DNA of 64,000 nt, taken from the NCBI GenBank assembly GCA_949358305.1, contig CASHSZ010000016.1, forward strand, positions 1 through 64,000, written 5' to 3'. The notes under the pieces were generated by a model. That model did no database searches. It saw nothing but the letters and a program-made list of their open reading frames with translations, and was not told the DNA's origin. Below, one piece after another: positions 1,712 to 64,000 of the stretch. The translations under genes were made by a program, and so were the position numbers. This DNA is from Strigamia acuminata (Eukaryota > Arthropoda > Chilopoda > Geophilomorpha > Linotaeniidae). Numbering within the stretch: the first letter of the stretch is position 1; every line of letters begins with the position of its first letter.

Positions 1712-1977
1712 CTGGAGAAAAAAAAAAAATAAATAAATGAATAAACGAACAAACAGACGGGCAAATAAATATACGATATTGCACGTCGAATCCAAGTTTG
1801 TGCGCGGGTCGGATTCATACGATCAATCCGCTCAATGCGCGCGCGGCAAATTAAATTTGCAGGTTAAATTATAGTGCGCGCGCGGGAATTATTAATTTAC
1901 GTCAAATCAACGTGATCGCTTTTCAATTTCAAATTGGAACGCGATCACGTTGATTGTCAAAATAAAATGGTCAGTTA

Positions 1978-2757: not shown

Positions 2758-2788
<31 letters not shown>

Positions 2789-4729: not shown

Positions 4730-5166
4730 CTTCCCACCTTCCGTCTCTTTGTTTGCGTCGGATGTCTGTAAGGGAGAGAAAATAAAAAATAAAAATAAAA
4801 ATAAAAACATTTTTCGTTTGTGTCGGCATATTCCGCTCTAAACGCGCGATTTGAAAACGACCACAAATCCGTGCTCGACGACGGTGCGTGGCAACGAGTG
4901 GACCAATACGGTATACACGTGTGCATATATAAATCAATAAATAAAAAATGTATACATTCGTCTAATTTTAATAAACCTCGTTCGCCGTCGATCGGGTAAA
5001 AATCATCCACGTTACACCGCAAACGCTCACTCACGTACACTCCCGCGACCAAACACAAAAAATCCATGTGCGTTGTTCGACGACCACACGTGTGCACACG
5101 TACGACCACGGACGCGATTCATTGACAAAAATATCGCAAAAATTCGTAAAAGCCGCCCAAATTTAC

Positions 5167-14699: not shown

Positions 14700-15960
14700 T
14701 TATTCCGTTTTATTTGTTTATTTGTTTTTATTTTTATTTTTATTTATTTATTTATTTTATTTTATTTTTTTTTTTTTTTTATAACATTCTGCAAACTGTA
14801 AAAACTGTAAAAACTTTAAATATAGATATTTCAGTGAACAGCGAGTTTGTTTTTATTTTAGACTAGATGGGATACCTGGGTCGAAACGAATTAGGTCGAA
14901 ACGGGATTTCGACTTTAGTCATTTCGACCTTAGTATGGAATCCCGGGTGCTCATAGTATTCGAAAATTAAGTAAAGTAAAGTAAAGTTTAGTCATCTTCT
15001 TTGGATATTTTTTTTACTCCGTTTGGCGTCTTGCGCGCGCGCTTGTTTGCTCCCTTCTCCCTTCTCCGCCTCGAATTTCGTCCCCGGTCGGTCGTTTTCA
15101 CCCGACACCCAAAAGTCCAATCCCGACGAACGGATCCACGAATTCCGTCGTGAAATCGCGAACACGTCGTCAACGCACAGGCCACGCGCGTATCACGAGG
15201 AACAAATAAATAAACAATTAAATGGGTGTTTTTGCACAATTATTTGAAATAAACACGCTTTATAGGTGTGTCTGTCTGTGGGCTTATTTTGGAACAAGTT
15301 GTTGGGGCTGCCGACACTCGTCGGTGCCAGCTGCCCCGCATTCACCGTAGGTGAGGCGCTCGTTGCCGCAATGGTCGCCGCAATGGTCGCCGGAATGTTC
15401 GTGGTGGAGCAGAACACCCGTGGGTGGGAAATACCGTTTCAAATCGATTCAGGAAATTTCGACCGAAACCCTCGGATCTCCATGATGGCTCGAAGCGAAC
15501 GAATTCAAAGTGTATGCAAACTCGTCGAACGCGATTATACAAACTCGCATCGTCTACGATGGTGCAACGTGTACTGCGAGTTGAAATTAAAATGGTAAAC
15601 CGATCGGGGCGTTCGCGATCTTCGACTCAGACGGCACCCAATTCGATAATCTAATTAATCGTTGGGGCACTCGTCGTGGAATTAGTTCCACTGTCGATAA
15701 ATCGATTTATATATTTCAAGGACTTTTATTCAACTCCGCTCGAGCGTTTGTGCGCAGGACTTTGTACCTGGTCACGTGGCCTGTAATGTAATTTCCCAGA
15801 ACCGCCACGCCACCCGACGTAAGCCGTGCCCTTCGATGGACGCCAAAGTGTCCATTCGATGCGGATTTTTGCGTTTCCCGCGTTAAAAGGTGTCCTATAA
15901 ATTCCGAAACCAAGTTAATCTTGATTTACTTGTCTACGTGGATCTCCCCATATATTTTGT
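14700..15960. repeat. Dispersed-repeat block C (no gene)
   Basis: Begins with a (TTTTA)n/(TTTA)n tract at 14700-14780, then repeat units with one hairpin module at 15281-15340 and the second copy of the 290-bp duplication at 15436-15724. A run of GTAAA repeats lies at 14969-14987. No coding region is credible. Confidence 0.6.
15436..15724. repeat. Copy 2 of the 290-bp duplication
   Basis: Near-identical to 13565-13855. The flanking sequence differs on both sides, with the hairpin module 96 bp upstream here and about 75 bp upstream in copy 1, so the duplicated block probably includes a diverged larger unit. Confidence 0.85.
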
Positions 15961-16224
15961 TTTCCAATTTCAATGTGGGAAAGTTTGTCGGTTGCAATTT
16001 TTCTCGCGCGCACGGCAATCACGAAAAAATCTCCGACGGTAACGCACTCTGACGGTAATTGTTTTAAATTAAAAAAAAAAAAAATTAGATAGATAGATAG
16101 ATAGATAGATAGGATAAAAATTAAAACAAAATAAAGAAGGGTTGAATTTCTCGGACCATCATCATTGTCGCCCAGCAGTCAGTCAGTCTCTTTCTTTCCT
16201 TTTTTCTGCACAAAGCAAACGTAA

Positions 16225-16307
16225 GATCGCGGAAGCGAGACTCGAACCCAGAGTCCACGGCTCCATGCGGCAGGTAGTCCTGCCCACTCGACCACTCTGG
16301 GTCGATT
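16225..16307 (-). repeat. tRNA-derived SINE head (A and B boxes)
   Basis: On the minus strand an A box (TGGTCGAGTGG, 16294-16284) and a B box (GGTTCGAGTC, 16248-16239) are correctly spaced, with a GGCAGG/CCTGCC hairpin between them. The acceptor and T stems do not pair properly, so this is a tRNA-like SINE promoter rather than a working tRNA gene. A GATA microsatellite lies at 16088-16111. A related but more degraded copy is at 25090-25165. Confidence 0.5.
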
Positions 16308-16616
16308 ATAAATTGTGCTAAAATATAGAAAAGAAGAGAAACAGATAAATAAATAAAATAAATAAAATAAAGACGTATATTTAATCACCCGATGAGATGT
16401 TTTTTTTACAATGAGAAACAAAATATACGCAATATAAACAAACAATACGAGACAATGAGATGGGGGATTGTTGTTTTTATCCCATAAGAGTTGTGTCACA
16501 TCTTTGACAATTGAAAAAAAAAAAAAAATAAATGAATAAATAAAATTAAAAACAAAAACAAAAACTAAATCAATCAAACAAACAAACAAACGAGAGTGGG
16601 AATAAACCGTCTCCTC

Positions 16617-17208
16617 TTATAATTCCATCGAAAGATCGGAACCACCAATTGCCTCTTCAGCGCCTTCGTCATCATCGTCGTCAACGACATCCTCTATCCA
16701 ACCCATCGTTCCCTCCATCGCCTTCCACCATTTTTCCTCTGCTTCTTCAAATGTTTTCTCAAATTCCTCCATCGTCGCCTTCACCATTTTCTTGAGTCTT
16801 TGTTCCGTCCTGTCTATCAACTCCTCAATTCTCTCCTCTAGTCCCTCCATCATTTTTTCGACCCTTTCCTCCGTCGCCGCCATTGTCGTCTCCTGGACCT
16901 TCGTCTGTCTTCGACCGAGCGACTGGAGAAAGAGAGAAAAGAACGAATAAAAATAAAAAAAAAAATAAAAAAAAAAAAAAGGTCAAATAAAAAAGACAAA
17001 AGAGTAAATATCGGAATGGGACACATACCCCCTTGATCTTCGTGGGATCATTAGTTTTTCGCTCGCGTGCATCATGCACGGAACTACTGGCGGCGCTCAA
17101 GTTTGGCGTGTGGCTCCACGCCTCCATGAAGTCGATGCGTTCCAAAAGGACGACGGGTGACAGGTGCGACTTTGTGGACGGCTTTTCTCCTCTCTTTCCT
17201 TTTTCCAT
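16617..17208 (-). CDS. Basic N-terminus plus acidic coiled-coil protein, about 161 aa
   Basis: Exons 17208-17029 and 16922-16617 join in phase 0 (AAGGGG/GTATGT ... CTTTCTCCAG/TCG). The first exon starts MEKGKRGEKPSTK and ends NDPTKIKG. The second runs SLGRRQTKVQETT, then a Glu/Lys/Met heptad region (EERVEKMMEGLEERIEELI) and a DDDDDE acidic segment before a stop at 16617. Intron position, phase, the Lys-Gly or Lys-Arg end of exon 1 and the opening serine match the genes at 11.1 kb and 26.0 kb. These shared features support a small gene family; no function can be assigned. Confidence 0.5.
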
Positions 17209-17369
17209 ATTTTCTTCGATGTGAAAAAAAAGATAAAAATTAAAATCGCAACAAAAAGAACCAAAACGTGGGACGTCGAATAAAACATCCGCGCACATAT
17301 TGTTCGCGCAAGTCTACGCGCGTACATGTACGTGTTGGACGTGGTACATTTGATGCCTACCGCGGAACA

Positions 17370-17498
17370 ATGCGAGAAAACACGAGAAAATACGAAGTTC
17401 TCGTATTTTCTCGGTTTTACTTCCATTTGGTTAATTCTTACCTTTGGTTTCAATACAATTTATCTTATTTCAGAAGTCTGCGAGACACATATAAAAAG

Positions 17499-17530
<32 letters not shown>

Positions 17531-17735
17531 GTTTATTTCTAATTAAATGAGAAAAATCTTATATATAGGCTTAACCCACCATGCAATAAGAAACAGACGA
17601 AAAAATCTTCTTTTTATTCGTGTCTTGTAGTTTTCTGAAATGAGATAAATTGCATTGAAACGTAACATAAGAATTAATCAAATGAAAGCAAAACCGAGAA
17701 AAAGTGAGAATCTTGTATTTTCTCGTTGTACGACA
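17370..17735. mobile_element. Foldback element (imperfect inverted repeat, about 130-160-bp arms)
   Basis: The left arm (about 17400-17510: CGGTTTTACTTCCATTTGG ... AAAAAGAAGATTT) is the reverse complement, with substitutions, of the right arm (about 17600-17730: AAAATCTTCTTTTTATTCG ... TATTTTCTCG). A T25-30 run and about 70 bp separate the arms. The outer end carries its own short palindrome, GAGAAAATACGA/TCGTATTTTCTC, at 17384-17414. The structure fits a MITE or foldback transposon; the ends and target duplication were not resolved. Confidence 0.5.
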
Positions 17736-17739
17736 AAGT

Positions 17740-18275
17740 CGGTTCGCGTTACACGAGTTTTTCAAAGTACCGTGGCCCTGGTACACGATACCGTCTCGGT
17801 TTTAAAACGGCACCGCGGTCCCGACGCTCACCTGCCGCAAAAAGCAATGCAGTCCAGGGCCGCGAACCGCGTGTAAAAACGCCAACTGACGAGTGTTTAC
17901 CGGGAAAATGGTTAATTTACCTCTAATCGTTCCACTTGTTCACTTGTTCACGACACGGGGTCCACACTACTGATGGCGAGCGCGCGAGTGATTCGACGCG
18001 GCATCTGGCGACAACCATGGAATCCCGCGCGTGATGCGACGTTGTTTGTTTATTTTTGTCTATTTTATTTATTTATTTGTTTATTTATATATTTATGTTT
18101 ATTTGTTTATTCATCTATTTGTTTCACGATGCTTTCAAATTTTTATTTTTTTGTAACTCCGCTCACCAAGCAGCGTCGTTATCGAAATCCGCCATACCTG
18201 ACCGCTGATTCCGCGCCGCCACGTGCTTCGCTGCTGAGCAAGTTGAAAGTATTTATGCCGTTTATCTATTTATCA

Positions 18276-18308
<33 letters not shown>

Positions 18309-18560
18309 CCAATCAACCAATTGACAACGACAACAATTGTTTCAACAATCCGACCATTCGTCCGCTTGTGTCTAAACGAGTGGAAGCGTGGAGAGGCGCG
18401 GAATTCGTCGCCATATTCTCGCTTGCCAGAAATGAAAAGAGAATAATTCGGTTTATCATTGTTTGATTGATCTGTGGTTTTATTCACCTTCCTTTCCTTT
18501 TCATTGATTGTGTTTTGCTGTTCAATTCTCGTTTGTATTTAATTTACGGTAATCTAATTT
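17740..18560. other. Non-coding stretch with microsatellites
   Basis: Contains (TTTA)n at 18052-18115, (TATC)n at 18266-18309 and scattered plausible splice sites. An ATG at 17973 opens 22 codons (MASARVIRRGIWRQPW...), but no phase-compatible next exon was found. An acceptor at 18571 implies that a 5' exon of the next gene lies in this stretch. Confidence 0.4.
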
Positions 18561-18571
18561 TTACATTTCAG

Positions 18572-19615
18572 ATGGAGAACGGAAAGAACGTCATCTGGGG
18601 TGAAGTGCGCCCGGGCACGAGGTGAGAGTGGTTGGTCGATCGATTGGTTTTATTTATTCGACACATTTTATTTTATTTCATTTTATTTTTATTTTATTTT
18701 TAAGGGGCCCATCGCGATTGTCGTTTGGGAAAAAGAACGTGAATAACCCCATCATTTGGGGTGAAATGCGCCCGGGCACGAGGTGAGAGTGGTTGGTCGA
18801 TCGATTGGTTTTATTTATTCGACACATTTTATTTTATTTCATTTTATTTTTATTTTATTTTTAAGGGGCCCATCGCGATTGTCGTTTGGGAAAAAGAACG
18901 TGAATAACCCCATCATTTGGGGTGAAATGCGCCCGGGCACAAGGTGAGAGTGATTGGTCGATCGATTGGTTTTATTTATTTGACACTTTTTATTTCATTC
19001 TATTTTATTTTTATTTTATTTTTAAGGGGTTCGTCGCGATCGCCACCTTCGACGAGGTCGCCGCAGACCATCTATGTGCGGCCCGGGGAATTTGGTAATA
19101 ACATATTCTTCGGGCCGAGGCGCTATGTGCCAGAGTGAGTAAAGCAATTTATGGTCGATTCGTCGGTCGCGATTTGATTAATCATTTTTTTTTTTTTCCA
19201 TAGTAACTTACCATGGTTGCCACCTATGCGTGCCAATAATTTCCAATGCAACAGGCGCCACGCGCGGGATCGCCCAACACCACCGACGCATGGGTGGTCG
19301 GATATCCCAAGATCCACCCGAAACTATGTGTTTCAATTCTGCACAACTTGCTACCAGTTTGGTGGTTGCAACCCGTTCGTCACCAGTTACCAGTCACCAG
19401 TCACCCGCGACCGCCACCAGTTCGTCGCGCTATATCTACCTGTCCAGTTAGTTAATTAATTATTCTTTTTATCATTCTTTTTTTTTTTTTTTGTTTGTTT
19501 GTTTGTTTGTTTGTTTGTTTGTTTGTTTGTTTGTTTGATATATATATATATACATATATTTTTTTTTCTTCCTCTTAGTGGGACATCGTTATCAAACGTA
19601 GCGCCATCGGCGTAA
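18572..19615 (+). CDS. Exon-repeat gene: Arg/Gly/Pro protein with duplicated 78-nt exons, about 197 aa
   Basis: Coding exons 18572-18621 (50 nt), 18705-18782 (78), 18866-18943 (78), 19027-19134 (108), 19204-19446 (243) and 19579-19615 (37), all joined in phase 2. Exon 1 ends VIWGEVRPGT. Exons 2 and 3 encode the same 26-residue block containing PSRLSFGKKN and IIWGEMRPGT. They lie in a 161-bp tandem duplication that includes the intron, and the three introns are 83 bp each. Exon 4 has VRPGEFGNNIFFGPRR and exon 5 a Cys motif (CTTCYQFGGC). Exon 5 could also read on to a stop at 19459, giving 189 aa. The final short exon is favoured because AATAAA is at 19662 and the 24-kb paralogue also ends in a tiny phase-2 exon. 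Family unknown. Confidence 0.6.
18622..18943 (+). repeat. 161-bp tandem duplication of intron plus exon
   Basis: 18622-18782 and 18783-18943 are almost identical, including the intron; the near-identity shows a recent event. A third, diverged intron copy (18944-19026) shows the array was longer or partly converted. Confidence 0.9.
19490..19560 (+). repeat. (GTTT)n and (TA)n microsatellite in the last intron
   Basis: Eleven GTTT units near 19493-19537, then TATATATATA, inside the proposed last intron (19447-19578). Confidence 0.8.
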
Positions 19616-19782
19616 TTTTTCATTTTTTATTGTATTTTGTTCGTTTGTGGTTTATAATTTAAATAAAAATTGAATTTGAGATAAGTGGCCACGATTGATT
19701 GGGTTTATTTGATCGCAAAAAAAAAAAAAATTTAATTCGAATGAATCTATCGGTGTTAAAAACGACACGACCGGTTTGTTAG

Positions 19783-20340
19783 TTAGCCGATTGGTGAACA
19801 ATTTGCGAAACACGCGCGACACGTGGGGGCGTATTTCTCGGCACCCCCTATCACCACGACGTCTTCTTCGCCCGACGTCCGCTTCGTGAACGCGGCTTCC
19901 CCTCGACACCGGTAGCACGTTGCCTTCAGCTTCACGATGTGCTCTGATTTCGGGAGCAAATCGCAGACTTGACCGAACGGGTTCAACTTGAAATCCCCAT
20001 CGAGGGCCGCGATTACCACAGTCTTTCCTTTCTCTGCCATTTCTTGACAGAATTGTACCAAGTCCTCGAAAAACTGGCCCTCGTCAATCCCGATAATCCC
20101 GAAATTTTCGGATTGTCTTCGGGCTTCCGCGAGGTTTTCGACGGCGCGCGCCGCTCTCGATTTTCCGTCACGAGCGACGATTTCTCCGGGAATGTGGCGG
20201 TTGTCGATTTTGGGCTTCAATAACAACGCTTCTTCTCCTTCTAGGCGCCTCAAGAGTTCAGTTGTTTTCCCTGCAAACATCGGGCCCACTATTAACTGGA
20301 TATTGCCTCGTGGTCGATCCTCGATGGCCGACGTCGACAT
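19783..20340 (-). CDS. Thymidine kinase, type II (TK1 family), 185 aa
   Basis: The enzyme phosphorylates deoxythymidine to dTMP in the salvage pathway. Motifs in order: P-loop GPMFAGKT (residues 19-26), the DEGQFF block (86-91), the Zn site CYRC (142-145) and CRAC (174-177), and the lasso segment around FTKRTSGEEDVVVIGG. All expected catalytic elements are intact. At 185 aa it lacks the C-terminal extension that carries the degradation signal in animal TK1 (about 234 aa in human), so it resembles the minimal viral or bacterial size. The coding part has no intron; an acceptor-like TAG at about 20355 may end a 5' untranslated intron. AATAAA on the minus strand lies at 19709-19704. It is convergent with the exon-repeat gene. 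A second, clearly different TK lies in the retroelement at 44 kb. Confidence 0.92.
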   Translation of the reverse strand: MSTSAIEDRPRGNIQLIVGPMFAGKTTELLRRLEGEEALLLKPKIDNRHIPGEIVARDGKSRAARAVENLAEARRQSENFGIIGIDEGQFFEDLVQFCQEMAEKGKTVVIAALDGDFKLNPFGQVCDLLPKSEHIVKLKATCYRCRGEAAFTKRTSGEEDVVVIGGAEKYAPTCRACFANCSPIG

Positions 20341-20369
20341 CTCGTCTTGTTGCGTCTACCATCGAGGAA

Positions 20370-21370
20370 AAAGAGAAAGAATTTAAACGAATAAATGAAA
20401 AACGAAAAACTGACAAAATCGTGAGTCCGACTGCAAAACTAAAATTGGATAGAGATCGAGAACAAAATGGCGGTGATAGTGGTGTAACCACGGGGATTCC
20501 CGCCCGTGCTCGCGCATCGACCCGTTCTGGTTCATTTAGTTAGTTGGTCGGTCGGTTTAATTGACGAGTCGGTCAAATTGTTGGAGATTCTTCCCCTTTT
20601 TCTATTTTGAAAATTGACTAGGTTTGCTTACCGTGCAAACGAAACTCGATATAGCGAATGAACCAATGCGTACAAGTGCGCGAAGCAAAGCGCGGTATGG
20701 TAGGAAAGCTTTAGCCCGTCGCTCGCTGCAAAGACGCGAGAATACGACGCGACACTCGGTGACACAAATTAGAAATTAAGAAAAAAAATAAATAAATAAA
20801 TAAAGAAATAAAAAAAAATAAAGAGAGGATTCTTTCCATTCTCTTCTTTACGTTTTCTCTTTTCCTCTCCATTTCTTTGCGCCCACCCGCGAGAGAAGCG
20901 CACATCAGTGCACCAACGCAAACGCGTCGCCTCTAATGGTACGCGCGTTTGAGCGCGCCCTAATGCGTGATAATGAACGCAACGTGGTCGAGAGGGGCGA
21001 CAATCAGAATTTAATGAAATGAATATTTTTTTTTTTTTTTTTTTTTCAGTTTGATTTGAGATTATTGAAATATTAAAATTTACAATTAAAATAGCACACA
21101 ATTCCAGACGCAATCACAATTGCGAACAATGATGGATTCTGGGATTAATTTAAAGTTTGCGTTAAATCGTAAATGCGCATGCGCAGATACCGCGCAGCGA
21201 GGTGCACAGGTATAATTTCCTCCGATGAATTTTACTTCGGATTTTACGGACAATTTCAATGTGGAAAATTTATTTATAGTCGTCAGTTATTTGGCAACAA
21301 TATTATTACATTTTTAATCAGCATTTTAATCATAACTTTTGTCAGTTGTGTAGCTTATTTTTGATTTGTT
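20370..21370. other. Non-coding stretch between the TK gene and repeat block D
   Basis: AT-rich stretches with AAATA microsatellite (20783-20822) and a T20 run (21027-21048). Two pieces (about 20880-21000) contain the GTACGCGCGTTTGA motif shared with repeat block A. No supported gene. Confidence 0.4.
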
Positions 21371-23420
21371 ATTGTGACTGACCAGAAGGCCAGTCTGAGA
21401 CCGAGAGGGGCGTGCAAAAGGGACACCTATCGGCACTGGCGTCAGAAGAACTCGGGTACCGCGCCACTCGGTGGGTACTGTGCCGCTCGACCGAGCGACG
21501 ACGGCCCCTCGCTCTGCTCTCGGTCTGAAGGCTTTCGCAAAATGCAGCGGACGCGGTGATTAGAACTCGCGTCGACTCCGACGGGACGTCAACTCTGGAA
21601 GGTAAAATTAAAATATGAAACGGCGGATATTTTACGAAACTTTTGTTCCAGTCGGTTGCTACGAAGATAATCTCGTTAATCATTGGAATACGAACCGCGG
21701 AACCGGTTCCAAGATCCGAAATTTAAACTTTAATCGTCCGCTCGTTGTCGATCGCCAGGCACCTGTAAGTGATAAACGCGTCCTTTTCATTTTCTTGTCG
21801 CGTCTCGGGAGTTTGTGGATCTATAACCTGGCCTAATCTGACCTAATTCGAATCTGAGTTTGGATCTGAATTCTGCGTTTGCTTTATCGTTTCAACATTA
21901 TGAGAGTTTCCTTTTATTAAACAATTACATTTTCAATTCTCGTTGGTAGTTAATTGCGCCCTGGTGCGTTGCCATAAACACCGGACACTTTGTGGACATA
22001 TATCCACGTTGACGGACATCATTACCGACGCCCGCGCCAAAAACCCGTGTCGCGCTCACCCCCATCGCATCACGTGCATTATCGCGCGTCGTAGATCGCG
22101 AGCAAAGACACACTCATGTCCATATGTTGCTGAGAACTTTGCTCACGGTCGCGCGTCGACGTCGAAACGTGTCGAAACAAGCCGAAAAATGCAGGCAACC
22201 ACGCGCGCGTCATGGGGTTTAAATAAGCGAACGGATGTCGGTGCGGAAACTTATTTTCGGGACGAGTCGTTAGGGCTGCTGTCGTCGCCGCTCAACGGCC
22301 CCAACTGCTCCCATTCGCCGGTAGACCGAGCGAGAACGGGTGCGTTCTATTTCCGATTCATTTATTTATTATTTTGACCGACCCGAAGGCCAGTCTGAGA
22401 CCGAGAGGGGCGTGCAAATGTGACACATATAGGCACTGGCGCCAGAAGAACTCGGGTACCGCGCCACTCGGTGGGTACTGTGCCGCTCGACCGAGCGACG
22501 ACGGCCCCTCGCTCTGCTCTCGATATGAAGGCTTTCGCAAAATGCAGCGGACGCGGTGATTAGAACTCGCGTCGACTCCGACGGGACGTCAACTCTGGAA
22601 GATAAAATTAAAATATGAAACGGCGGATATTTTACGAAACTTTTGTTCCAGTCGGTTGCTACGAAGATAATCTCGTTAATCATTGGAATACGAACCGCGG
22701 AACCGGTTCCAAGATCCGAAATTTAAACTTTAATCGTCCGCTCGTTGTCGATCGCCAGGCACCTATAAGTGATAAACGCGTCCTTTTCATTTTCTTGTCG
22801 CGTCTCGGGAGTTTGTGGATCTATAACCTGGCCTAATCTGACCTAATTCGAATCTGAGTTTGGATCTGAATTCTGCGTTTGCTTTATCGTTTCAACATTA
22901 TGAGAGTTTCCTTTTATTAAACAATTATATTTTTAATTCTACTTGCTATTTAACTGCGTCCCGGTGCGTTGCCATAAGCACCGGACACCTTCGGACATTT
23001 ATCCACGTTGGTGAACATTATTATCGATGCCGGTGTCAAAAATCCATGTCGCGCTTACATACATCGCACCTCGCATATTATCGCGCGTGGGAATGCGTTC
23101 ACGCGTGTGCATGGCAAACAAAGACACGCTCATGCGAGCACATTGTCGAGGACTTCGCTCACGATCGCGCACTGACACCAGAACGTGTTGCATCAAAATA
23201 TTGAAATTTTCTACGACCAGATGCCGAATCTGTCATGTGCAAAGAGAGTGTGTGTAAACGAACGGACAAATAAATAAATAAATAAATAGATAAACCAAGT
23301 GTTTTTCATAACTGTTTGTTTGTTTGTACCGGCGGAACGTTGTGATGTCGATGTGAGAGTTTATTTTGGAAGAATTTGTTGGGACTGTCGACGCTCGTCG
23401 GTGCCAACTGCCCCGGCTGA
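21370..23420. repeat. Repeat block D with a 1,000-bp-offset tandem duplication
   Basis: 21370-21930 and 22370-22930 are nearly identical at an offset of exactly 1,000 bp; beyond about 21930/22930 the copies remain recognisable but clearly diverged. Each copy begins at a UUCG-type hairpin (21376-21402; 22376-22402). The 1,000-bp unit ends with a hairpin module (22248-22313; 23357-23414). Confidence 0.85.
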
Positions 23421-24032
23421 CCAACGACTGAACAATAGAGTGGTTGCGCAACCCGAATGCAGACTTTTGTGACCGAAACCCCCCGGATTTCCGCGAGGGC
23501 TCGAATCAGTCCCGGTTGGTCTGAAGGTGTTAGTAGATCCATCGGATGCAGTGACCGAAATTCAATGGGTGACGAACGACGATAGAGGGGGAGGATCGAA
23601 TTACTCCCCGGCAATCATCGTCGAAATGGAGAACCCAATTCGCTTATTCACTCGACAATTTGTGTCGTTTTACGAGCTTTATTGTTGATGTTTCGCGCGT
23701 GCACGTGTGTGTCTGTGTGTGGCATTTTACAACGGAGTGGCATCGACGTGTCCATTGGTTGACTCGAGTTCCAACCGTCCCCAACGCCTCGTAAAAATCG
23801 ACACCGATTTTATGACTTTGAACGACTTTATCGCTAACATTTCCATCTGGTTCCCCGTAACGACGTTTCGACCATTGCTCCCCCCACACTCCAATTCAAA
23901 ATTTAATAAGAAATTGTCAAACTTTTCAAATTCTATGATAAAAGTTGAGTGTTTTTATTGTTTACAAAATAAAAACGAAAAATAGAAAAATAAAATAAAA
24001 AAAGATTCACAATCGACTCGTCACATCGCCGA

Positions 24033-42944: not shown

Positions 42945-42948
42945 GTCT
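42945..42948. other. Target-site duplication GTCT (left)
   Basis: The same four bases follow the element at 49112-49115; joining the flanks restores the satellite string TTGGTCTTGTGG. Confidence 0.9.
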
Positions 42949-43904
42949 TGTTGCAACTCGCCACTGCCGTGATGCGACGAGTTGTAACGCGATGGGGAAT
43001 TCTTGGCAAATTTCCCATAGGCCTATACTGAGAGGAGAAATGAGTTGACTTGAGTTTCTGCACTGGATCTTGTGGGGAGCTGCTCCAGGGAGTTTGGGGT
43101 TAAATCTCCCTACTCACACATGTTGGATGTTGAATAAAATAAACCTTTGTGTAGAAAAATCCAGATAATGCTTTTAATCATTTCAAAACATTAACATGGA
43201 GGCAAATTCAACTTAACTACATCTAATTCTTCATAACAAGAGTGTAACAACTTCATAACAACAACAATTCTATAGCAACAACAAATTCATGAGGCACCTA
43301 GTGACTAAATTCATAAATAACATAAGTTAAAGCTTGCATTGTGCCTCATAATAGAGATAAAATCAACTAAAATTAACAGAAATCATTGGAAAGAATTATA
43401 ACAAATAGAATAGGAATAAACTTAACTAAATATGCAAATAACGCATCTAAAGCAAGTCAAATACACTGTAAAAATGCATTAATTGCAATCCATTACAAAA
43501 TTAACAATTCCTTCTTTTCCAATGCACCTTTAAAGCAACTCAGATGCTTCAAACCCGTCATTCCGCCTTCACAACTGAACTGGGAACAGGACAAGACTTA
43601 GAAATAGGTAAACATAGCATGAAAACATTGGAAAACAAGACTAAAAATTCCTAAACCTTGACCTTGTCATTCTAAGAGATAAAATACCTAACAAACATTG
43701 TCTTTACTGAAAATTGGCACACAAAAAAGACATGTAAAATTCCTATTACAACAGAAAAAGATTAGATATTTGCTAAATAAATAATACAATTATAAGACCG
43801 AAATTAGTAACTCTTCTTTACATTTTCGAACACATAAAATCAAACTACTATCAAATTGACGAGCAGTTGTGGTCTCTCTTTCCTCCTTTCTGTTGCTCGA
43901 AACA
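42949..43904 (-). repeat. 3' LTR of the TK element
   Basis: 956 bp, starts TGTTTCGAGCAAC and ends GTTGCAACA on the minus strand. An ATTAAA polyadenylation variant lies about 240 bp before the LTR end. A CAACTCG/CGAGTTG hairpin sits at the outer end. Confidence 0.95.
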
Positions 43905-43997
43905 GAGATTGCCGCCGAAAAGAAAAGAAGGTGAAGAAGAACCTCTTAGCAATCTGAAAACTTCTCATCCACCTAGGATCAGCTCCCTAATGACTCC
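43905..43997 (-). other. Tail between stop codon and 3' LTR; no usual polypurine tract
   Basis: Read on the coding strand, the bases just before the LTR are pyrimidine-rich, then CGGCGGCAATCTC, where a polypurine primer would be expected. The unrelated element at 56.8-62.7 kb has the same arrangement (pyrimidine run, then GGCCGGCAACGC). Confidence 0.6.
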
Positions 43998-46985
43998 TTA
44001 AGGTAAGCGCAATTTTTTGCGGATCAAACTGGCCACCCATGGAGGTAATCTTCGATTCAAAATCGCTAAACTTAAATGTGCCGCTCCATTAATTAGCTTT
44101 CTCTTGACTTCTATAGAATTGATTGATTTCTGAAAACAGGTACGACACGTTGGCTTGTATCTCTCTTCTCCTCCCACAACCTGAACTTGCGTTTCACCCG
44201 ATATTCGTTTGGTGAACGACGCTTGGTTTCCACAAAAGTGGCATTTGGCATGAAGTTTGACAATAGTTTCCGCTAGTGGAATGAGATTAGATACTGCCTT
44301 GAATTCCTGTCTCTTAAAATCACCATTTAAAGCGGCAATTATTACATTCTTTCCTTCGTTCGCCATTTTGTCGGAAAACGAATCGATGTCTCCGAAAAAT
44401 TGCCCTTCGTCGATACCTATCGTCTTGACCGACTCCGCAATTTTCTTGATTTCCTGTAACGACGCGACCCGAACCGCTGGACGTCGTTGTCCGGTGTGGC
44501 TAACCATTTCATCTTTACTATATCTAACGTCTGTCAAATGCTTAACAAGCAGGCAAGAATTTTCTTCTTCATTTCGGATTACATTAAGTAAAGCAGTAGT
44601 TTTTCCAGAAAACATTGGGCCAATTACTAAATGTATATTTCCCGTGGCCTTTGTGACTGCATTTGATCTTCTGTGCGAATTGGTGAGTTTCTTGCGACTC
44701 CATTTCAATATCTTCCTCCATTTACTTAAACCCTTTTCTTCATCTTTTTTGAAATTTTTTGGAAATTCTCCTTTCTTTTCCGTAGACTCCAGTGTGTCAG
44801 GACTCTGAGAAATCGCCATCTTGCCCGACCTTATCCCTTTAAACGTCCGCTTTCCATCCATTTCCAATTCGATGGGGACGTCAGGATGCCGTACCTCCAG
44901 CTCGCTAGAGCGGCTCGCGGCAAAACGAGAAGCGATGACGCCTTTTGCTCGTACTCCACCCTTTTCGCTTTTCTCGTCGGGCATTGATGTGGAATTCGCC
45001 TGTCCAAACCCGCCTTTGTCCTTTTTTGAAGTGTTGAAAGTCATCTTCTTTCCAGAATCGATCGCCATACACGATACATCTCCCAGTGAGATATCGTCTT
45101 TGTAGATGGAAGGCTCTTTTGAGTTAATTTGTCCGTTTAAAATCCATCCAAAAACTGTTTTTATCATTCCTAATTCTGGACTAATTCTCTTCGTTCCCGC
45201 TTGAATTATTTTCCACCATGCTCCGCTTCCGATCAAGACATCTACCTCATCTGACACGGAGGGATGTGGTTCTGCCATCTCAAGATTAAACGACTTGATT
45301 TGTTGCAGCGTCTGGTGATCTACCACTCCCTTTATATTGGGAAGTGTGTCGGTATCAAGAGCAAATACAGACACTTTCTGCTTGTCGTGACGAGACTGCA
45401 ACTCGAATCTAAACACGTCATGACTTGTAGGAACTGGTTCCTTGTTCAGCAGACACTGGGTCATGGTGTGATACGTCTCAATCTTGTTTAGGTGTAATTT
45501 CTTTGCTAACCGCTTCGTAATATATGAACGATGACTACCCGGATCGAGTAATCCACGAACTGGGATTGTTTCGCCACTCTTTCGGACGAACAATGCTGTG
45601 AAAACCATTAGCTGGACGTCACTTGAGACCGACAACGAGACGTTGGCGGAGACGTTCTCTTCTTTGGTATCAGGTGGCTTTTCCGCATGACCTCTGTTAC
45701 AAATTGAAGAATGGTGTCGACCACCGCATGATCGGCAACAAAATTTTACAGGGCAGTTACCCACTGTATGGCTTGGTCTCAGGCAATTAAAGCATAGACG
45801 TTTTCGCTTAACGATGTCGTATTTCTCCGAAACTTCCAGATTTGCGTCGCAATTATTGTTGAAATGATCTCCTTCACAGAAGGCACAGATCAATTTCCGG
45901 ACTGGACCTGATTTTGGTTTGAATGATTCTTTCGTATTGGACCCGAATGACGTATTTTGCGCAACCGCGCAAGATGACATGGTCCCTCGTAATTCTTCTT
46001 TTTGCTCTCTAGTTGCTGGTTTCTCACTCTTCTTGGTGACTTTCTGACTGGTAAATACGCTATCGTCTGATAATTCTGCTACTCTGACTTCGCTTGCTAC
46101 AAATTCGAGAAATAAATTAACGTTTTCCACGTTTCTTTTGTAAATCCTATGAAATCGTCTTCCCAATTCCGGTGGAAACTTCCGCAATAATTCCGGGATT
46201 AGAAATAATCCAGTAGTCGTAACTGGGAACTTCAACTGTTCTAATGTTCGGAAAGCACCGGTGAGGGACGTCAATAGAGATTTTACTGGCTGGATTGGGT
46301 ACAAATCTTTAACTGCTTCGGCTTCACGAATTTTCCTCGCCAGAGCGTTCTTTTGGGCTACTTCTGACCCAAAAAGTCCTTCTAAACTGCTAAGTGCCAT
46401 TAAATACGAATCGTTAGTAAGTGGGTACGACTTAATCGCCACTTCAGCTTCCCCGATACAGCTTGATTTAAGATATTGAAGTTTTTCGACGTTCGATAAC
46501 TCGGCATCGGCGTCAACTGTGGTTGAAAACATATCCATGAAGCTCTTATACTCCATCGGATTCCCGTCGAATTTCTGCAGAGTCAACTTTGGAAGCTTTG
46601 TAGTCTTCCGTGATATGATTGAGGAGTTGTTCAGAAATCCAGAATTCATTAGCGTATTTCCGCCGGGATGTGCCCCAAACTTATCCTGCATCTGTTTTGA
46701 AAATTTCGTCCTTTGCTTAAGAAGATTGACCTTAGTCCTAATGTCTTCGAGACGTCTCAAACTAAGCAGGTAATCTGAACGTTCTATCTTGTCTTTAAAG
46801 ACAGCGAGCTCATCAATAAGGTCACTCAACTGCGCATCTATTGTTGCGTGGAGAGCTTCAAGCTCACCCCCGTCGAGAACGTTTGCAGATGTCGAGAGCA
46901 GATCCTCTGCTCCTTGGGCCTTGGCTTGCCATTGTGTTTCTTTCTCTTCCGCTGCTTCCGCGGTCAATCCAGCTGCAGTTGCCAT
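43998..46985 (-). CDS. Gag - zinc knuckles - partial protease - thymidine kinase fusion, 995 aa
   Basis: One uninterrupted frame. Residues about 40-100 are helical. 130-305 are the BEL/Pao Gag region (DUF1759-like: LPKLTLQKFDGNPMEYKSF). Three zinc knuckles follow: C367-C370-H374-C379, C398-C401-H406-C411 and a third at 416-429. 455-620 is the aspartic-protease-like region typical of BEL/Pao (DUF1758-like: GLLDPGSHRSYI, VDVLIGSGAWW, FGWILNGQI); the usual Asp-Ser/Thr-Gly reads Asp-Pro-Gly. A basic, Ser-rich linker spans 620-780. Residues 782-952 are a complete thymidine kinase: P-loop GPMFSGKT (789-796), DEGQFF (859-864), FTKRISGE and Zn cysteines CHFC (915-918) and CRTC (947-950). A 43-residue tail follows. 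Reverse transcriptase would normally follow the protease. The kinase is related to, but clearly different from, the one at 19.8 kb. Confidence 0.92.
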   Translation of the reverse strand: MATAAGLTAEAAEEKETQWQAKAQGAEDLLSTSANVLDGGELEALHATIDAQLSDLIDELAVFKDKIERSDYLLSLRRLEDIRTKVNLLKQRTKFSKQMQDKFGAHPGGNTLMNSGFLNNSSIISRKTTKLPKLTLQKFDGNPMEYKSFMDMFSTTVDADAELSNVEKLQYLKSSCIGEAEVAIKSYPLTNDSYLMALSSLEGLFGSEVAQKNALARKIREAEAVKDLYPIQPVKSLLTSLTGAFRTLEQLKFPVTTTGLFLIPELLRKFPPELGRRFHRIYKRNVENVNLFLEFVASEVRVAELSDDSVFTSQKVTKKSEKPATREQKEELRGTMSSCAVAQNTSFGSNTKESFKPKSGPVRKLICAFCEGDHFNNNCDANLEVSEKYDIVKRKRLCFNCLRPSHTVGNCPVKFCCRSCGGRHHSSICNRGHAEKPPDTKEENVSANVSLSVSSDVQLMVFTALFVRKSGETIPVRGLLDPGSHRSYITKRLAKKLHLNKIETYHTMTQCLLNKEPVPTSHDVFRFELQSRHDKQKVSVFALDTDTLPNIKGVVDHQTLQQIKSFNLEMAEPHPSVSDEVDVLIGSGAWWKIIQAGTKRISPELGMIKTVFGWILNGQINSKEPSIYKDDISLGDVSCMAIDSGKKMTFNTSKKDKGGFGQANSTSMPDEKSEKGGVRAKGVIASRFAASRSSELEVRHPDVPIELEMDGKRTFKGIRSGKMAISQSPDTLESTEKKGEFPKNFKKDEEKGLSKWRKILKWSRKKLTNSHRRSNAVTKATGNIHLVIGPMFSGKTTALLNVIRNEEENSCLLVKHLTDVRYSKDEMVSHTGQRRPAVRVASLQEIKKIAESVKTIGIDEGQFFGDIDSFSDKMANEGKNVIIAALNGDFKRQEFKAVSNLIPLAETIVKLHAKCHFCGNQASFTKRISGETQVQVVGGEERYKPTCRTCFQKSINSIEVKRKLINGAAHLSLAILNRRLPPWVASLIRKKLRLP

Positions 46986-48155
46986 TTATTCTCGAGAAAG
47001 AGAGAATGAGAATAAAAATTCTATTCAACAACTCAATCACTGCTAATTAAATCCCCACGAATATTCTCCGAACTTCACAGACTCTTACTTATACTTGCTT
47101 AACGTTAATTCAAATGCGGTGTGCAAATGAAAAACGACCTCGAAATAAAATGCTAAACTCAACTCCGAAATGCCACAGACAATCTGACTTGACACACTAT
47201 ACGTAATACACTGGGACGGAATTATTGACCGCACAAATAAACTTATCCGCATAAATATCTTGATAATTCCCCCAAAATGCACTTAGTTCGAAATTAATAA
47301 TTAATATCTAACCGCACAACCGAGATAAATAGTTATCTTTTACAATAACACTGCACAAAGGAGATAAATAGTTATATTTTACAATAACCCCGCACAAAGA
47401 GATAAATAGTTATATTTTACAATAACCCCGCACAAAAAGAGATAATAGCTATAGTTTATAATAGCGCTGCACAAAAGAGATAATTAGCTATCATATACAA
47501 TAGCTCCGCACTTAAGAGATAATAACTTGATGTTTAAAATTATTGACATAAAAAACCCCTTTTAAACTCCCCAAACACAGCTCGAAATTGGCAGAAACTT
47601 CCTTGAAAAATCAGATAAAGAATTAATTTAAATAAATATAATTCTTAAATTCTAACAGCAATTGAATTAAAATTAATCTTGTTCTTTTTTCAGCTGCAGA
47701 TGAACTTGAAGATTGACATTGCGTTGTGTTTCTCAAATTGTTGACCAGGAAATCGCTTGCTTGTCTCCTTATGTTGACCGCCACAGTAGAAGGACTCCGA
47801 ACTCGTTACACTTGACATAAAATCCACTGACGAATCAACTCCCTGACGACTGCGAAGGATGACACAGCACAAACACACTTCTGTCGCAAATGGCGACAAT
47901 AATCCAGTAGAGAAAAATCGAAAAACGTGTTGTCACACACTTCATACCACGAAAATCGGCACCACACACTGCTTACTGCGAACTAGATGCCACACACTGC
48001 CTCACTGTGAAGTCGGGAACACACACGCAAATCACCGTGAAATCGACGTCACACACCTGGCTAAAAATGCAATGACGTGCACTGAAATCCACTGGAAGAA
48101 CTGGACGAAAATCCTGGTTGGCAACAACAAAATCCTTGGGTCACGGTACCAAAAA
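46986..48155 (-). other. 5' leader with primer-binding region and tandem repeats
   Basis: Directly after the 5' LTR the coding strand reads TTTTTGGTACCGTGACCC, the BEL/Pao-type primer-binding region starting TGG (48151-48138). Farther on are degenerate GTGTGTG-centred units (about 47,930-48,060) and five to six units of about 47 bp containing GAGATAAATAGTTAT (about 47,308-47,530). No ORF is convincing. Possible roles (packaging, dimer formation) are inference. Confidence 0.7.
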
Positions 48156-49111
48156 TGTTGCAACTCGCCACTGCCGTGATGCGACGAGTTGTAACGCGAT
48201 GGGGAATTCTTGGCAAATTTCCCATAGGCCTATACTGAGAGGAGAAATGAGTTGACTTGAGTTTCTGCACTGGATCTTGTGGGGAGCTGCTCCAGGGAGT
48301 TTGGGGTTAAATCTCCCTACTCACACATGTTGGATGTTGAATAAAATAAACCTTTGTGTAGAAAAATCCAGATAATGCTTTTAATCATTTCAAAACATTA
48401 ACATGGAGGCAAATTCAACTTAACTACATCTAATTCTTCATAACAAGAGTGTAACAACTTCATAACAACAACAATTCTATAGCAACAACAAATTCATGAG
48501 GCACCTAGTGACTAAATTCATAAATAACATAAGTTAAAGCTTGCATTGTGCCTCATAATAGAGATAAAATCAACTAAAATTAACAGAAATCATTGGAAAG
48601 AATTATAACAAATAGAATAGGAATAAACTTAACTAAATATGCAAATAACGCATCTAAAGCAAGTCAAATACACTGTAAAAATGCATTAATTGCAATCCAT
48701 TACAAAATTAACAATTCCTTCTTTTCCAATGCACCTTTAAAGCAACTCAGATGCTTCAAACCCGTCATTCCGCCTTCACAACTGAACTGGGAACAGGACA
48801 AGACTTAGAAATAGGTAAACATAGCATGAAAACATTGGAAAACAAGACTAAAAATTCCTAAACCTTGACCTTGTCATTCTAAGAGATAAAATACCTAACA
48901 AACATTGTCTTTACTGAAAATTGGCACACAAAAAAGACATGTAAAATTCCTATTACAACAGAAAAAGATTAGATATTTGCTAAATAAATAATACAATTAT
49001 AAGACCGAAATTAGTAACTCTTCTTTACATTTTCGAACACATAAAATCAAACTACTATCAAATTGACGAGCAGTTGTGGTCTCTCTTTCCTCCTTTCTGT
49101 TGCTCGAAACA
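48156..49111 (-). repeat. 5' LTR of the TK element
   Basis: Same 956 bp as 42949-43904, without a visible difference. Promoter is presumed here; no clear TATA box was singled out. Confidence 0.95.
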
Positions 49112-52100
49112 GTCTTGTGGTGTTTGTGCTAAGTCAACTGTGATGAGATCAAAAGTCTATTCTCCCAAATCATTGCTTGGATGTTGCTAAAACTTACATT
49201 AAAGCTTTTTACTAAGGTTTAAACACTATTTCAAAACATTCAGAGACATTGGTCTTGTGATGTTTGTGCTAAGTCAACTGTGATGAGATCAAAAGTCTAT
49301 TCTCCTAAATCATTGCTTGGATGTTGCTAAAACTTACATTGAAGCCTTCTACTAAGGTTTAAACACTATTTCAGAACATTCAGAGACATTGGTTTGTGGT
49401 GTTTGTGCTAAGTCAACTGTGATGTCAAATGAGATCAAAAGTTTATTCTTTCAAATTATTGCTTGGATGTTGCTAACACTTACATTGAAGCCTTCTACTA
49501 AGGTTTAAACACTATTTCTAAACATTCAGAGACATTGGTCTTGTGGTGTTTGTGCTAAGTCAACTGTGATGAGATCAAAAGTCTATTCTCCCAAATCATT
49601 GCTTGGATGTTGCTAAAACTTACATTGAAGCCTTCTACTAAGGTTTAAACACTATTTCAGAACATTCAGAGACATTGGTTTGTGGTGTTTGTGCTAAGTC
49701 AACTGTGATGAGATCAAAAGTCTATTCTCCAAAATCATTGCTTGGATGTTGCTAACACTTACATTGAAGCCTTCTACTAAGGTTTAAACACTATTTCTAA
49801 ACATTCAGAGACATTGGTCTTGTGGTGTTTGTGCTAAGTCAACTGTGACGTCAAATGAGATCAAAAGTTTATTCTTTCAAATTATTGCTTGGATGTTGCT
49901 AAAACTTACAATGAAGCTTTCTACTAAGATTTAAACACTATTTCAGAACATTCAGAAACATTGGTCTTGTGATGTTTGTGCTAAGTCAACTGTGATGTCA
50001 AATGGGATCAAAAGTTTATTCTTCTAAATCATTGCTTGGATGTTGCTAAAACTTACATTGAAGCCTTCTACTAAGGTTTAAACACTATTTCAGAACATTC
50101 AGAGACATTGGTCTTGTGATGTTTGTGCTAAGTCAACTGTGATGTCAAATGAGATCAAAAGTTTATTCTTTCAAATCATTGCTTGGATGTTGCTAAAACT
50201 TACATTAAAGCTTTCTACTAAAGTTTAAACACTATTTCAGAACATTCAGAGACATTGGTCTTGTGGTGTTTGTGCTAAGTCAACTGTGATGAGATCAAAA
50301 GTCTATTCTCCCAAATCATTGCTTAGATGTTGCTAAAACTTACATTGAAGCCGTCTACTAAGGTTTAAACACTATTTCAGAACATTTAGAGACATTGGTC
50401 TTGTGGTGTTTGTGCTAGGTCAACTGTGATGAGATCAAAAGTCTATTTTCCCAAATCATTTCTTGGATGTTGCTAAAACTTACATTAAAGCTTTCTACTA
50501 AGGTTTAAACACTATTTCAAAACATTCAGAGACATTGGTCTTGTGATGTTTGTGCTAAGTCAACTGTGATGAGATCAAAAGTCTATTCTCCTAAATCATT
50601 GCTTGGATGTTGCTAAAACTTACATTAAAGCTTTCTACTAAGGTTTAAACACTATTTCAAAACATTCAGAGACATTGGTCTTGTGATGTTTGTGCTAAGT
50701 CAACTGTGATGAGATCAAAAGTCTATTCTCCCAAATCATTGCTTGGATGTTGCTAAAACTTACATTGAAGCCTTCTACTAAGGTTTAAACACTATTTCAG
50801 AACATTCAGAGACATTGGTTTGTGGTGTTTGTGCTAAGTCAACTGTGATGTCAAATGGGATCAAAAGTTTATTCTTCCAAATCATTGTTTGGATGTTGCT
50901 AAAACTTACATTGAAGCCTTCTACTAAGGTTTAAACACTATTTCAGAACATTCAGAGACATTGGTCTTGTGATGTTTGTGCTAAGTCAACTGTGATGTCA
51001 AATGAGATCAAAAGTTTATTCTTTCAAATTACTGCTTGGATGTTGCTAACACTTACATTGAAGCCTTCTACTAAGGTTTAAACACTATTTCTAAACATTC
51101 AGAGACATTGGTCTTGTGGTGTTTGTGCTAAGTCAACTGTGACGTCAAATGAGATCAAAAGTTTATTCTTTCAAATTATTGCTTGGATGTTGCTAAAACT
51201 TACATTGAAGCTTTCTACTAAGGTTTAAACACTATTTCAGAACATTCAGAGACATTGGTCTTGTGATGTTTGTGCTAAGTCAACTGTGATGAGATCAAAA
51301 GTCTATTCTCCAAAATCATTGCTTGGATGTTGCTAAAACTTACATTGAAGCCTTCTACTAAGGTTTAAACACTATTTCAGAACATTCAGACACATTGGTC
51401 TTGTGGTGTTTGTGCTAAGTCAACTGTGACGTCAAATGAGATCAAAAGTTTATTCTTTCAAATTATTGCTTGGATGTTGCTAAAACTTACATTGAAGCTT
51501 TCTACTAAGGTTTAAACACTATTTCAGAACATTCAGAAACATTGGTCTTGTGATGTCAACTGTGATGTCAAATGGGATCAAAAGTTTATTCTTCCAAATC
51601 ATTGCTTGGATGTTGCTAAAACTTACATTGAAGCCTTCTACTAAGGTTTAAACACTATTTCAGAACATTCAGAGACATTGGTCTTGTGATGTTTGTGCTA
51701 AGTCAACTGTGATGTCAAATGAGATCAAAAGTTTATTCTTTCAAATCATTGCTTGGATGTTGCTAAAACTTACATTAAAGCTTTCTACTAAAGTTTAAAC
51801 ACTATTTCAGAACATTCAGAGACATTGGTCTTGTGGTGTTTGTGCTAAGTCAACTGTGATGAGATCAAAAGTCTATTCTCCCAAATCATTGCTTAGATGT
51901 TGCTAAAACTTACATTGAAGCCGTCTACTAAGGTTTAAACACTATTTCAAAACATTCAGAGACATTGGTCTTGTGATGTTTGTGCTAAGTCAACTGTGAT
52001 GAGATCAAAAGTCTATTCTCCCAAATCATTGCTTGGATGTTGCTAAAACTTACATTGAAGCCTTCTACTAAGGTTTAAACACTATTTCAGAACATTCAGA

Positions 52101-62716: not shown

Positions 62717-64000
62717 CAACAGAAAGGAGGAAAGAGAGACCACAACTGCTCGTCAATTTGATAGTAGTTTGATTTTATGTGTTCGAAAATGTAAAGAAGA
62801 GTTACTAATTTCGGTCTTATAATTGTATTATTTATTTAGCAAATATCTAATCTTTTTCTGTTGTAATAGGAATTTTACATGTCTTTTTTTGTGTGCCAAT
62901 TTTCAGTAAAGACAATGTTTGTTAGGTATTTTATCTCTTAGAATGACAAGGTCAAGGTTTAGGAATTTTTAGTCTTGTTTTCCAATGTTTTCATGTTATG
63001 TTTACCTATTTCTAAGTCTTGTCCTGTTCCCAGTTCAGTTGTGAAGGCGGAATGACGGGTTTGAAGCATCTGAGTTGCTTTAAAGGTGCATTGGAAAAGA
63101 AGGAATTGTTAATTTTGTAATGGATTGCAATTAATGCATTTTTACAGTGTATTTGACTTGCTTTAGATGCGTTATTTGCATATTTAGTTAAGTTTATTCC
63201 TATTCTATTTGTTATAATTCTTTCCAATGATTTCTGTTAATTTTAGTTGATTTTATCTCTATTATGAGGCACAATGCAAGCTTTAACTTATGTTATTTAG
63301 AAATTTAGTCACTAGGTGCCTCATGAATTTGTTGTTGCTATAGAATTGTTGTTGTTATGAAGTTGTTACACTCTTGTTATGAAGAATTAGATGTAGTTAA
63401 GTTGAATTTGCCTCCATGTTAATGTTTTGAAATGATTAAAAGCATTATCTGGATTTTTCTACACAAAGGTTTATTTTATTCAACATCCAACATGTGTGAG
63501 TAGGGAGATTTAACCCCAAACTCCCTGGAGCAGCTCCCCACAAGATCCAGTGCAGAAACTCAAGTCAACTCATTTCTCCTCTCAGTATAGGCCTATGGGA
63601 AATTTGCCAAGAATTCCCCATCGCGTTACAACTCGTCGCATCACGGCAGTGGCGAGTTGCAACATTTTTGGTACCGTGACCCAAGGATTTTGTTGTTGCC
63701 AACCAGGATTTTCGTCCAGTTCTTCCAGTGGATTTCAGTGCACGTCATTGCATTTTTAGCCAGGTGTGTGACGTCGATTTCACGGTGATTTGCGTGTGTG
63801 TTCCCGACTTCACAGTGAGGCAGTGTGTGGCATCTAGTTCGCAGTAAGCAGTGTGTGGTGCCGATTTTCGTGGTGTGAAGTGTGTGACAACACGTTTTTC
63901 GATTTTTCTCTACTGGATTATTGTCGCCATTTGCGACAGAAGTGTGTTTGTGCTGTGTCATCCTTCGCAGTCGTCAGGGAGTTGATTCGTCAGTGGATTT
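62717..64000 (+). mobile_element. Second TK-element copy: rest of the 5' LTR and leader (runs off the window)
   Basis: After the CAAC target duplication the LTR continues from 62721 to 63664 (957 bp in total with the 13-bp start). The primer-binding region TTTTTGGTACCGTGACCC is at 63665-63682, followed by the same leader as in the first element. A few substitutions and one extra base distinguish its LTR from the first element. The gag-TK frame would lie beyond 64000. Confidence 0.92.

Follow-up and report, generated by a model that had tools for sequence, protein, structure and literature searches.

Can a long terminal repeat (LTR) retrotransposon do without a polymerase and carry a nucleotide-supply enzyme in its place? 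This question is raised by a locus of Strigamia acuminata (Chilopoda, Geophilomorpha), on a stretch of 64,000 nucleotides that we call the window (assembly GCA_949358305.1, contig CASHSZ010000016.1, positions 1 to 64,000 of the forward strand; C27:1-64000 in our labels). The genome comprises 237.5 Mb in 157 contigs; C-numbers denote contigs and L-numbers other stretches of the same genome. At 42949-49111 of the window, on the minus strand, lies an LTR element whose single open reading frame (ORF) encodes a BEL/Pao Gag, then a protease-like region and finally a type II thymidine kinase (TK). We refer to such elements as Gag-TK. We consider it likely that Gag-TK is a Pol-less, non-autonomous BEL/Pao element that would form its own Gag particle from this Gag-protease-TK ORF and borrow reverse transcriptase (RT) and integrase from a helper in trans, with a kinase that was captured once in its ancestry and would aid the supply of deoxythymidine triphosphate (dTTP).

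A thymidine kinase behind Gag and a protease-like region

The element and the second copy at the right end of the window contain the following features.

42945..42948, no strand: left copy of the target site duplication GTCT (flank reading)
42949..43904, minus strand: 3' LTR, 956 bp
43569..43606, minus strand: 38-bp LTR block within the 3' LTR (LTR comparison)
43905..43931, minus strand: polypurine/3' box CTTCTTTTCGGCGGCAATCTC (element sense), abutting the 3' LTR
43998..46985, minus strand: single ORF for Gag, protease, linker and TK, 995 residues (ORF and Pfam)
44133..44642, minus strand: type II TK domain, residues 782-951 (Pfam, structure-database comparison)
44643..45062, minus strand: fast-evolving linker, residues 642-781, starting where homology to gag-pol elements stops
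45126..45551, minus strand: DUF1758 protease-like region, residues 479-620 (Pfam and alignment)
45699..45887, minus strand: three zinc knuckles, residues 367-429 (motif search)
46137..46571, minus strand: BEL Gag domain DUF1759, residues 139-283 (Pfam)
46986..48133, minus strand: leader of about 1.15 kb, holding an array of 39-bp repeats (47312-47522)
48134..48151, minus strand: primer-binding site (PBS) TGGTACCGTGACCCAAGG, with 71 exact sites in the genome and 0 for the reversed-pattern control
48156..49111, minus strand: 5' LTR, 956 bp, TG...CA, identical to the 3' LTR
48776..48813, minus strand: 38-bp LTR block within the 5' LTR (LTR comparison)
49112..49115, no strand: right copy of the target site duplication GTCT (flank reading)
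62717..64000, plus strand: LTR and leader of a second Gag-TK copy, which continues beyond the window

The TK family PF00265 matches the end of the ORF with 185 bits (E 1.4e-54) and all 176 profile positions covered, while DUF1759 scores 56.7 bits against a cut-off of 25.4 (E 3.6e-15) and 64 bits in a second lineage, B, described below. The zinc knuckles start at residues 367, 398 and 417. DUF1758 reaches 20.9 bits (E 3e-4), just below its cut-off of 22, and is unmatched in the copies L010 and L012; the region aligns with the proteases of gag-pol BEL elements, with LLDPGS at residue 479, and the motif DPGSHRSY/F is common to Gag-TK and the aligned BEL proteins of the genome (L049, L056, L057 and L027). 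A first-pass annotation of the window had read this frame as BEL/Pao Gag, zinc knuckles and protease-like region followed by a complete type II TK, between identical LTRs (here 956 bp, 100% identical) with a target duplication, and this description holds. Of the three families that it named, DUF1759 and PF00265 are matched, while DUF1758 stays under its cut-off.

No family of the RT, RNase H, integrase or Peptidase_A17 region matches the 995-residue ORF at E 1 (Pfam). The same region is present in BEL gag-pol elements of this genome, and the homology of Gag-TK to them stops at about residue 641, just ahead of the stretch leading into RT. Because a linker of about 140 residues and the TK fill the place that leads to RT in these relatives, the TK occupies the position of Pol, as the annotation had proposed. 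Gag-TK is a Pol-less BEL derivative and not an autonomous BEL element.

The TK domain is complete, with the active-site motifs of a type II TK, and is predicted to be active. It has the P-loop GPMFSGKT at residue 789, DEGQFF at 859 and the zinc pairs CHFC at 915 and CRTC at 947. The P-loop, DEGQFF, the four zinc cysteines and the tyrosine of GG..[RK]Y in the lasso region are kept in the window copy, L002, L010 and L012, and presumably play their usual catalytic roles; FTKR reads FSRR in lineage B. Past the TK the protein ends in a basic, variable tail of about 44 residues. The nearest solved structure is human TK1 (E 2.9e-45), followed by poxvirus and trypanosomatid TKs and then by bacterial ones. 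A pattern search of viral contigs, sensitive to near relatives only, returned no close relative of this TK.

The window element is surrounded by a satellite of 140/147-bp units (32746-56744), which is home to many such elements. In the second copy (L048) the end of the TK is interrupted outside the window by DNA beginning TGTTGCTAGCAACA, and this start resembles the tips of the lineage B LTR (LTR B) and of a BEL element in L049.

Copies, insertion sites and selection

A genome-wide TK search, in which 150 of 205 candidates were scored, assigned 92 matches to Gag-TK, 40 to a class of 190 residues and 13 and 5 to two others (classes were set by frame length and checked on fetched loci). Frames of 995-1013 residues hold 84 of the 92 Gag-TK matches; seven are shorter and one has a stop. 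A chance origin of the fusion is excluded by these two proportions, 92 of 150 and 84 of 92. Two longer TK frames on C130 (1118 and 1999 residues) were rejected as long fusions, being produced by runs of N.

The same picture is obtained from Gag. With residues 1-480 as query, 89 of 1209 candidates were scored; 43 belong to lineage A, at 92-100% identity, and 46 to lineage B, at 57-58%. Among them 81 are in frames of 995-1013 residues, 8 are shorter and none is longer than 1013, and a TK match lies within 3.2 kb downstream in 82 of the 89. The TK is carried by these two lineages plus one diverged mosaic copy. Near a Gag-TK copy that contains a stop we also observed a separate 566-residue ORF with a BEL Gag (DUF1759; L027:788-2485, plus strand).

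The lineage B copy in L010 has identical LTRs of 1358 bp and the target duplication TCAAC. We read the outer flanks of nine further LTR pairs: eight have perfect duplications of 4-5 bp, and the ninth is part of a tandem LTR-internal-LTR array, of a kind seen on C5 and C13. Of the eight, two count as a single site because an inverted duplication holds both, and four share one position in the satellite, leaving at least four independent insertion sites (GATT, GGAC, GTTGC and ACTG) besides those of the window (GTCT) and L010. Gag-TK is Pol-less, yet it has intact LTRs, PBS and polypurine box as well as recent insertions (the two LTRs are identical both in the window copy and in L010), in keeping with a non-autonomous status.

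The annotation had named an assembly chimera at the Gag-TK junction as a possible objection. We reject a chimera on the 84 of 92 TK matches in full frames on many contigs and on the 60 of 71 exact PBS sites that pair with a TK match. Within the genome assembly, full-length frames also occur at numerous loci, flanked by target duplications of their own, which likewise speaks against it.

Selection on the protein was estimated from Nei-Gojobori counts as the ratio of nonsynonymous to synonymous substitution (dN/dS), with Fisher tests on the counts. For the TK, dN/dS is 0.12 between the window and L002 (dS 1.0; p 6e-22) and 0.14 between L010 and L012 (p 5e-6). The Gag part (145 codons) and the protease give 0.07 and 0.08 for window and L002. 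The linker is far less constrained, at 0.44 for window and L002 and 0.63 for L010 and L012 (p 0.2, no departure from 1), as is the short C-terminal tail (0.32 and 1.14, respectively). Two findings that would have spoken against the annotation, a lack of further copies with an intact TK and a TK ratio near 1, are contradicted by the many intact copies and by a ratio far below 1.

The stretches L049 and L002 lie next to each other and seem to make up a single Gag-TK copy with a nested BEL element. This copy is mosaic, its 5' Gag being 98% like the window and its 3' part diverged; between L010 and L012, the TK differs more than Gag. Such mosaic copies would fit template switching between co-packaged RNAs. 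Between the window and L012, identity is 58% in Gag, 59% in the protease and 56% in the TK, and the TKs of the fusion class form one clade among the TKs of the genome (support 0.998, unrooted tree). Because Gag, protease and TK have diverged equally and the TKs form one clade, we place a single capture before the split of the lineages. Taken together, the sequences indicate one old TK capture that is still under purifying selection.

The other three classes of TK lie in dispersed repeats of their own. The window contains a separate intact TK of 185-190 residues at 19783-20340 (minus strand), within a dispersed repeat matching 14748-23563; the repeat around it is 99.7% identical to L026 over 8.8 kb, and two other ORFs of this repeat gave no Pfam match when scanned. 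It belongs to the 190-residue class. The third class (L017-L025) has mostly 216-269 residues, with two frames inflated by N and one cut at a contig end; its units, some beside runs of N, reach 9.4 kb at 99% identity (L019 versus L020) and have a module in common with the 190-residue class. The fourth (L013-L016) has 221 or 239 residues in repeats 99% identical over 5.6 kb (L013 versus L014), and its best score against a solved structure is to the Leishmania TK. A Pfam scan of eight other ORFs of the window and of a 434-residue ORF of L013, and an Rfam scan of the window, returned no match. A search for telomere patterns yielded nothing beyond short interstitial runs.

Shared signals and a candidate helper

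RT and integrase are both absent from Gag-TK, which makes it dependent on a relative for them. The annotation had looked to an autonomous relative with the same LTR. The dependence stands, as it is implied by the lack of Pol; the relative differs from the one expected, since the candidate helper described here has different LTRs and shares instead the PBS, the polypurine box, the LTR tip and the satellite niche. No autonomous element with the 956-bp LTR was found among 40 scored of 101 candidates, and no autonomous sibling with a close Gag among 89 scored of 1209 Gag candidates.

Mobilisation of two families by one RT and integrase predicts a shared primer site, shared LTR tips and a shared genomic niche. 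The 71 exact window-type PBS sites were found with a pattern containing one N; allowing up to two mismatches gives 230 sites (control 5), the first 100 of which were listed. In seven fetched of the 11 sites that do not pair with a Gag-TK match, we found no gag-pol belonging to this PBS: five (L049, L050, L052, L053 and L055) hold interrupted or truncated Gag-TK coding sequence, and two (L051 and L054) are leader ends only. One further site is the second copy of the window, and three were left unopened (C8:6960865, C8:7129170 and C8:7215127). The gag-pol frame in L049, the only one among the fetched stretches, was rejected as an autonomous sibling, being a nested element with a different PBS, and L058, a two-mismatch site, was set aside as a gag-pol relative, no Gag being seen there. 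As a separate observation, next to the cut Gag-TK copy L053 contains a copia-type polyprotein (1898-4939, minus strand) whose integrase and RT are separated by a methyl-CpG-binding domain (PF01429, E 2e-10).

A related PBS, TTTTTGGTACCGTGANNCCAGGATTT, differs from that of the window only at its NN and A/G positions. Allowing up to one mismatch gives 164 sites (control 0), with Gag-TK sites among them, and no fewer than 96 sites match exactly; none of these 96 has a listed Gag-TK kinase match 2.5-4.7 kb downstream. At one of them, L057, a frame with DUF1759 and a Gag-protease 39% identical to that of the window runs in frame, by coordinates, into L060, where Peptidase_A17 (143 bits), DUF5641 and H2C2 score above their cut-offs and RVT_1 and rve below. 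The LTRs of this L057/L060 element begin TGTTGCGAGCAA, a tip similar to that of Gag-TK, and the box before its 3' LTR resembles the Gag-TK polypurine box. On its left the element adjoins the same satellite, at 81-95% identity (the right flank lies beyond the stretch read).

Within the helper LTR, 38 bp are 87% identical to the lineage A LTR (LTR A; E 1.4e-8) and 26 bp are 88% identical to LTR B (E 1.3e-4), in which the block is partly kept. Maintained in three otherwise unalignable LTRs, this block is a candidate promoter or packaging signal.

Helper-type sites also cluster with Gag-TK. On large contigs, 81 of 83 exact sites lie at most 500 kb from a Gag-TK match, a zone that makes up 15.3 of 194.7 Mb on contigs of known size. 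The corresponding figure for other BEL Peptidase_A17 matches is 2 of 145, a comparison set that favours other BEL families, having been taken from the 150 best of 1068 candidates. From this circumstantial evidence we infer that a co-resident BEL gag-pol family, with a Gag-protease 38-39% identical, may move Gag-TK in trans.

Possible role of the kinase and relation to known systems

The proposed cycle would start with transcription from the LTR and translation of the Gag-protease-TK protein, which would form its own particle, the kinase lying inside it or on its surface. Co-packaging with helper Gag-Pol would bring in RT and integrase, a tRNA would prime at the PBS and the helper integrase would insert the copy with a 4-5-bp stagger. 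Close to RT, the TK would turn thymidine into thymidine monophosphate (dTMP) and so help the dTTP supply for reverse transcription; it is plausible that the kinase feeds reverse transcription in this way. In resting cells, reverse transcription is limited by the supply of precursors. The dUTP side of this problem is handled in some retroviruses and some retroelements by a dUTPase, whose fold is unrelated to that of TK. Cellular TK1 is low in non-dividing cells, where a TK under LTR control could matter.

Several observations, besides the composition of the Peptidase_A17 comparison set, weigh against this account. The expression, the enzyme activity and the particle of Gag-TK are predictions from genome sequence. 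Structure models of the TK have low confidence (predicted local distance difference test, pLDDT, 59 from an alignment and 35 from the single sequence), and the best Foldseek match of the model in the PDB, 1w4r (E 1.7e-9), has template modelling (TM) scores of 0.39/0.48, below 0.5. Synonymous sites between the window and L010 or L012 are saturated in Gag, protease and TK, so that no ratio can be given, and the partner of the window in the dN/dS estimates, L002, is a single mosaic copy. Segmental duplication of the satellite and the tandem arrays explain part of the copy number. On the helper side, two of the 96 listed helper-type PBS sites were opened (L057 and L056), both of which are BEL gag-pol starts; L056, of the same kind as L057 and 38% identical, is interrupted after the protease, and the LTRs of helper and Gag-TK are unalignable apart from the short block.

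Could the kinase instead work as an enzyme to the benefit of the host cell, for example in germ-line thymidine salvage, and merely ride on a retroelement? The three other kinds of dispersed repeat with intact TKs (40, 13 and 5 of 150 matches) leave room for a TK kept for reasons unrelated to reverse transcription. Yet the copies examined have the TK in the place of Pol, in one frame with the Gag-protease ahead of it, and the TK has diverged in parallel with Gag. A gene kept for the host would need no such fusion, and we regard this explanation as unlikely. That the domain serves the structure or regulation of the Gag particle, through oligomerisation, nucleotide sensing or RNA binding and with catalysis irrelevant, appears less probable still. 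In favour of this are its fusion to a protein that assembles, the tetramers formed by known type II TKs and the variable basic C-terminal tail; against it, lineages with 55-56% overall identity retain catalytic and zinc residues that oligomerisation alone would not need. An assembly artefact, or a single functionless fusion spread by satellite amplification, has next to no probability. Many copies do lie in satellite, some with common flanks that indicate partial segmental duplication, but this is set against no fewer than four additional target duplications of independent origin, the existence of two lineages that differ in their LTRs and a low TK dN/dS.

For the Pol-less element with a helper in trans, a more far-reaching reading can be put forward tentatively, as a possibility that falls somewhat short of an even chance: the retroelement would have swapped its polymerase for a nucleotide-supply enzyme, and kinase-loaded Gag-TK particles would feed thymidylate to a borrowed RT, raising reverse transcription in precursor-poor cells for the element itself and perhaps for its helper. 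The intact TKs in three further kinds of dispersed repeat suggest thymidylate supply as a common currency of the selfish elements of this genome. With a strongly selected TK in place of the polymerase, Gag-TK allows a direct test of whether retroelements evolve towards feeding their polymerase, and it offers a pair of retrotransposons, parasite and helper, where an enzyme may come from the parasite.

Like BEL/Pao elements, Gag-TK has a single ORF with a Gag of the DUF1759 type, three zinc knuckles and a protease-like region that resembles DUF1758, together with TG...CA LTR ends, a primer site and 4-5-bp target duplications; the Gag-protease of the gag-pol elements of this genome is 36-39% identical. 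It differs from them in having a linker and TK instead of RT, RNase H and integrase. With type II TKs such as human TK1 and vaccinia TK it shares the full domain and the active-site motifs, but it is fused to a retroelement Gag-protease and has the additional tail of about 44 residues. The plant TR-GAG elements, which are non-autonomous and keep gag, likewise have their own Gag and LTRs and no Pol, with mobilisation in trans, which is inferred for Gag-TK; they are defined in plants, and the parts of the descriptions compared mention no added metabolic enzyme.

A search of the open-licence literature, judged by titles and with Repbase entries outside its scope, found no precedent for a thymidine kinase in an LTR element. 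An excerpted account names a thymidine kinase among the putative horizontal transfers of a nematode, outside any mobile element (PMC7593179). The nearest precedent found is that of the bdelloid LTR elements Juno, Vesta and TelKA, which, according to excerpts of their description, carry a dUTPase between protease and RT, with added GDSL and DEDDy ORFs also reported in bdelloid LTR elements (PMC5408684). As far as these excerpts go, such dUTPase elements, together with certain retroviruses, resemble Gag-TK in placing a thymidine-nucleotide enzyme after the protease in the polyprotein. They differ in retaining RT and integrase, and in the reaction: dUTPase removes dUTP, whereas TK makes dTMP.

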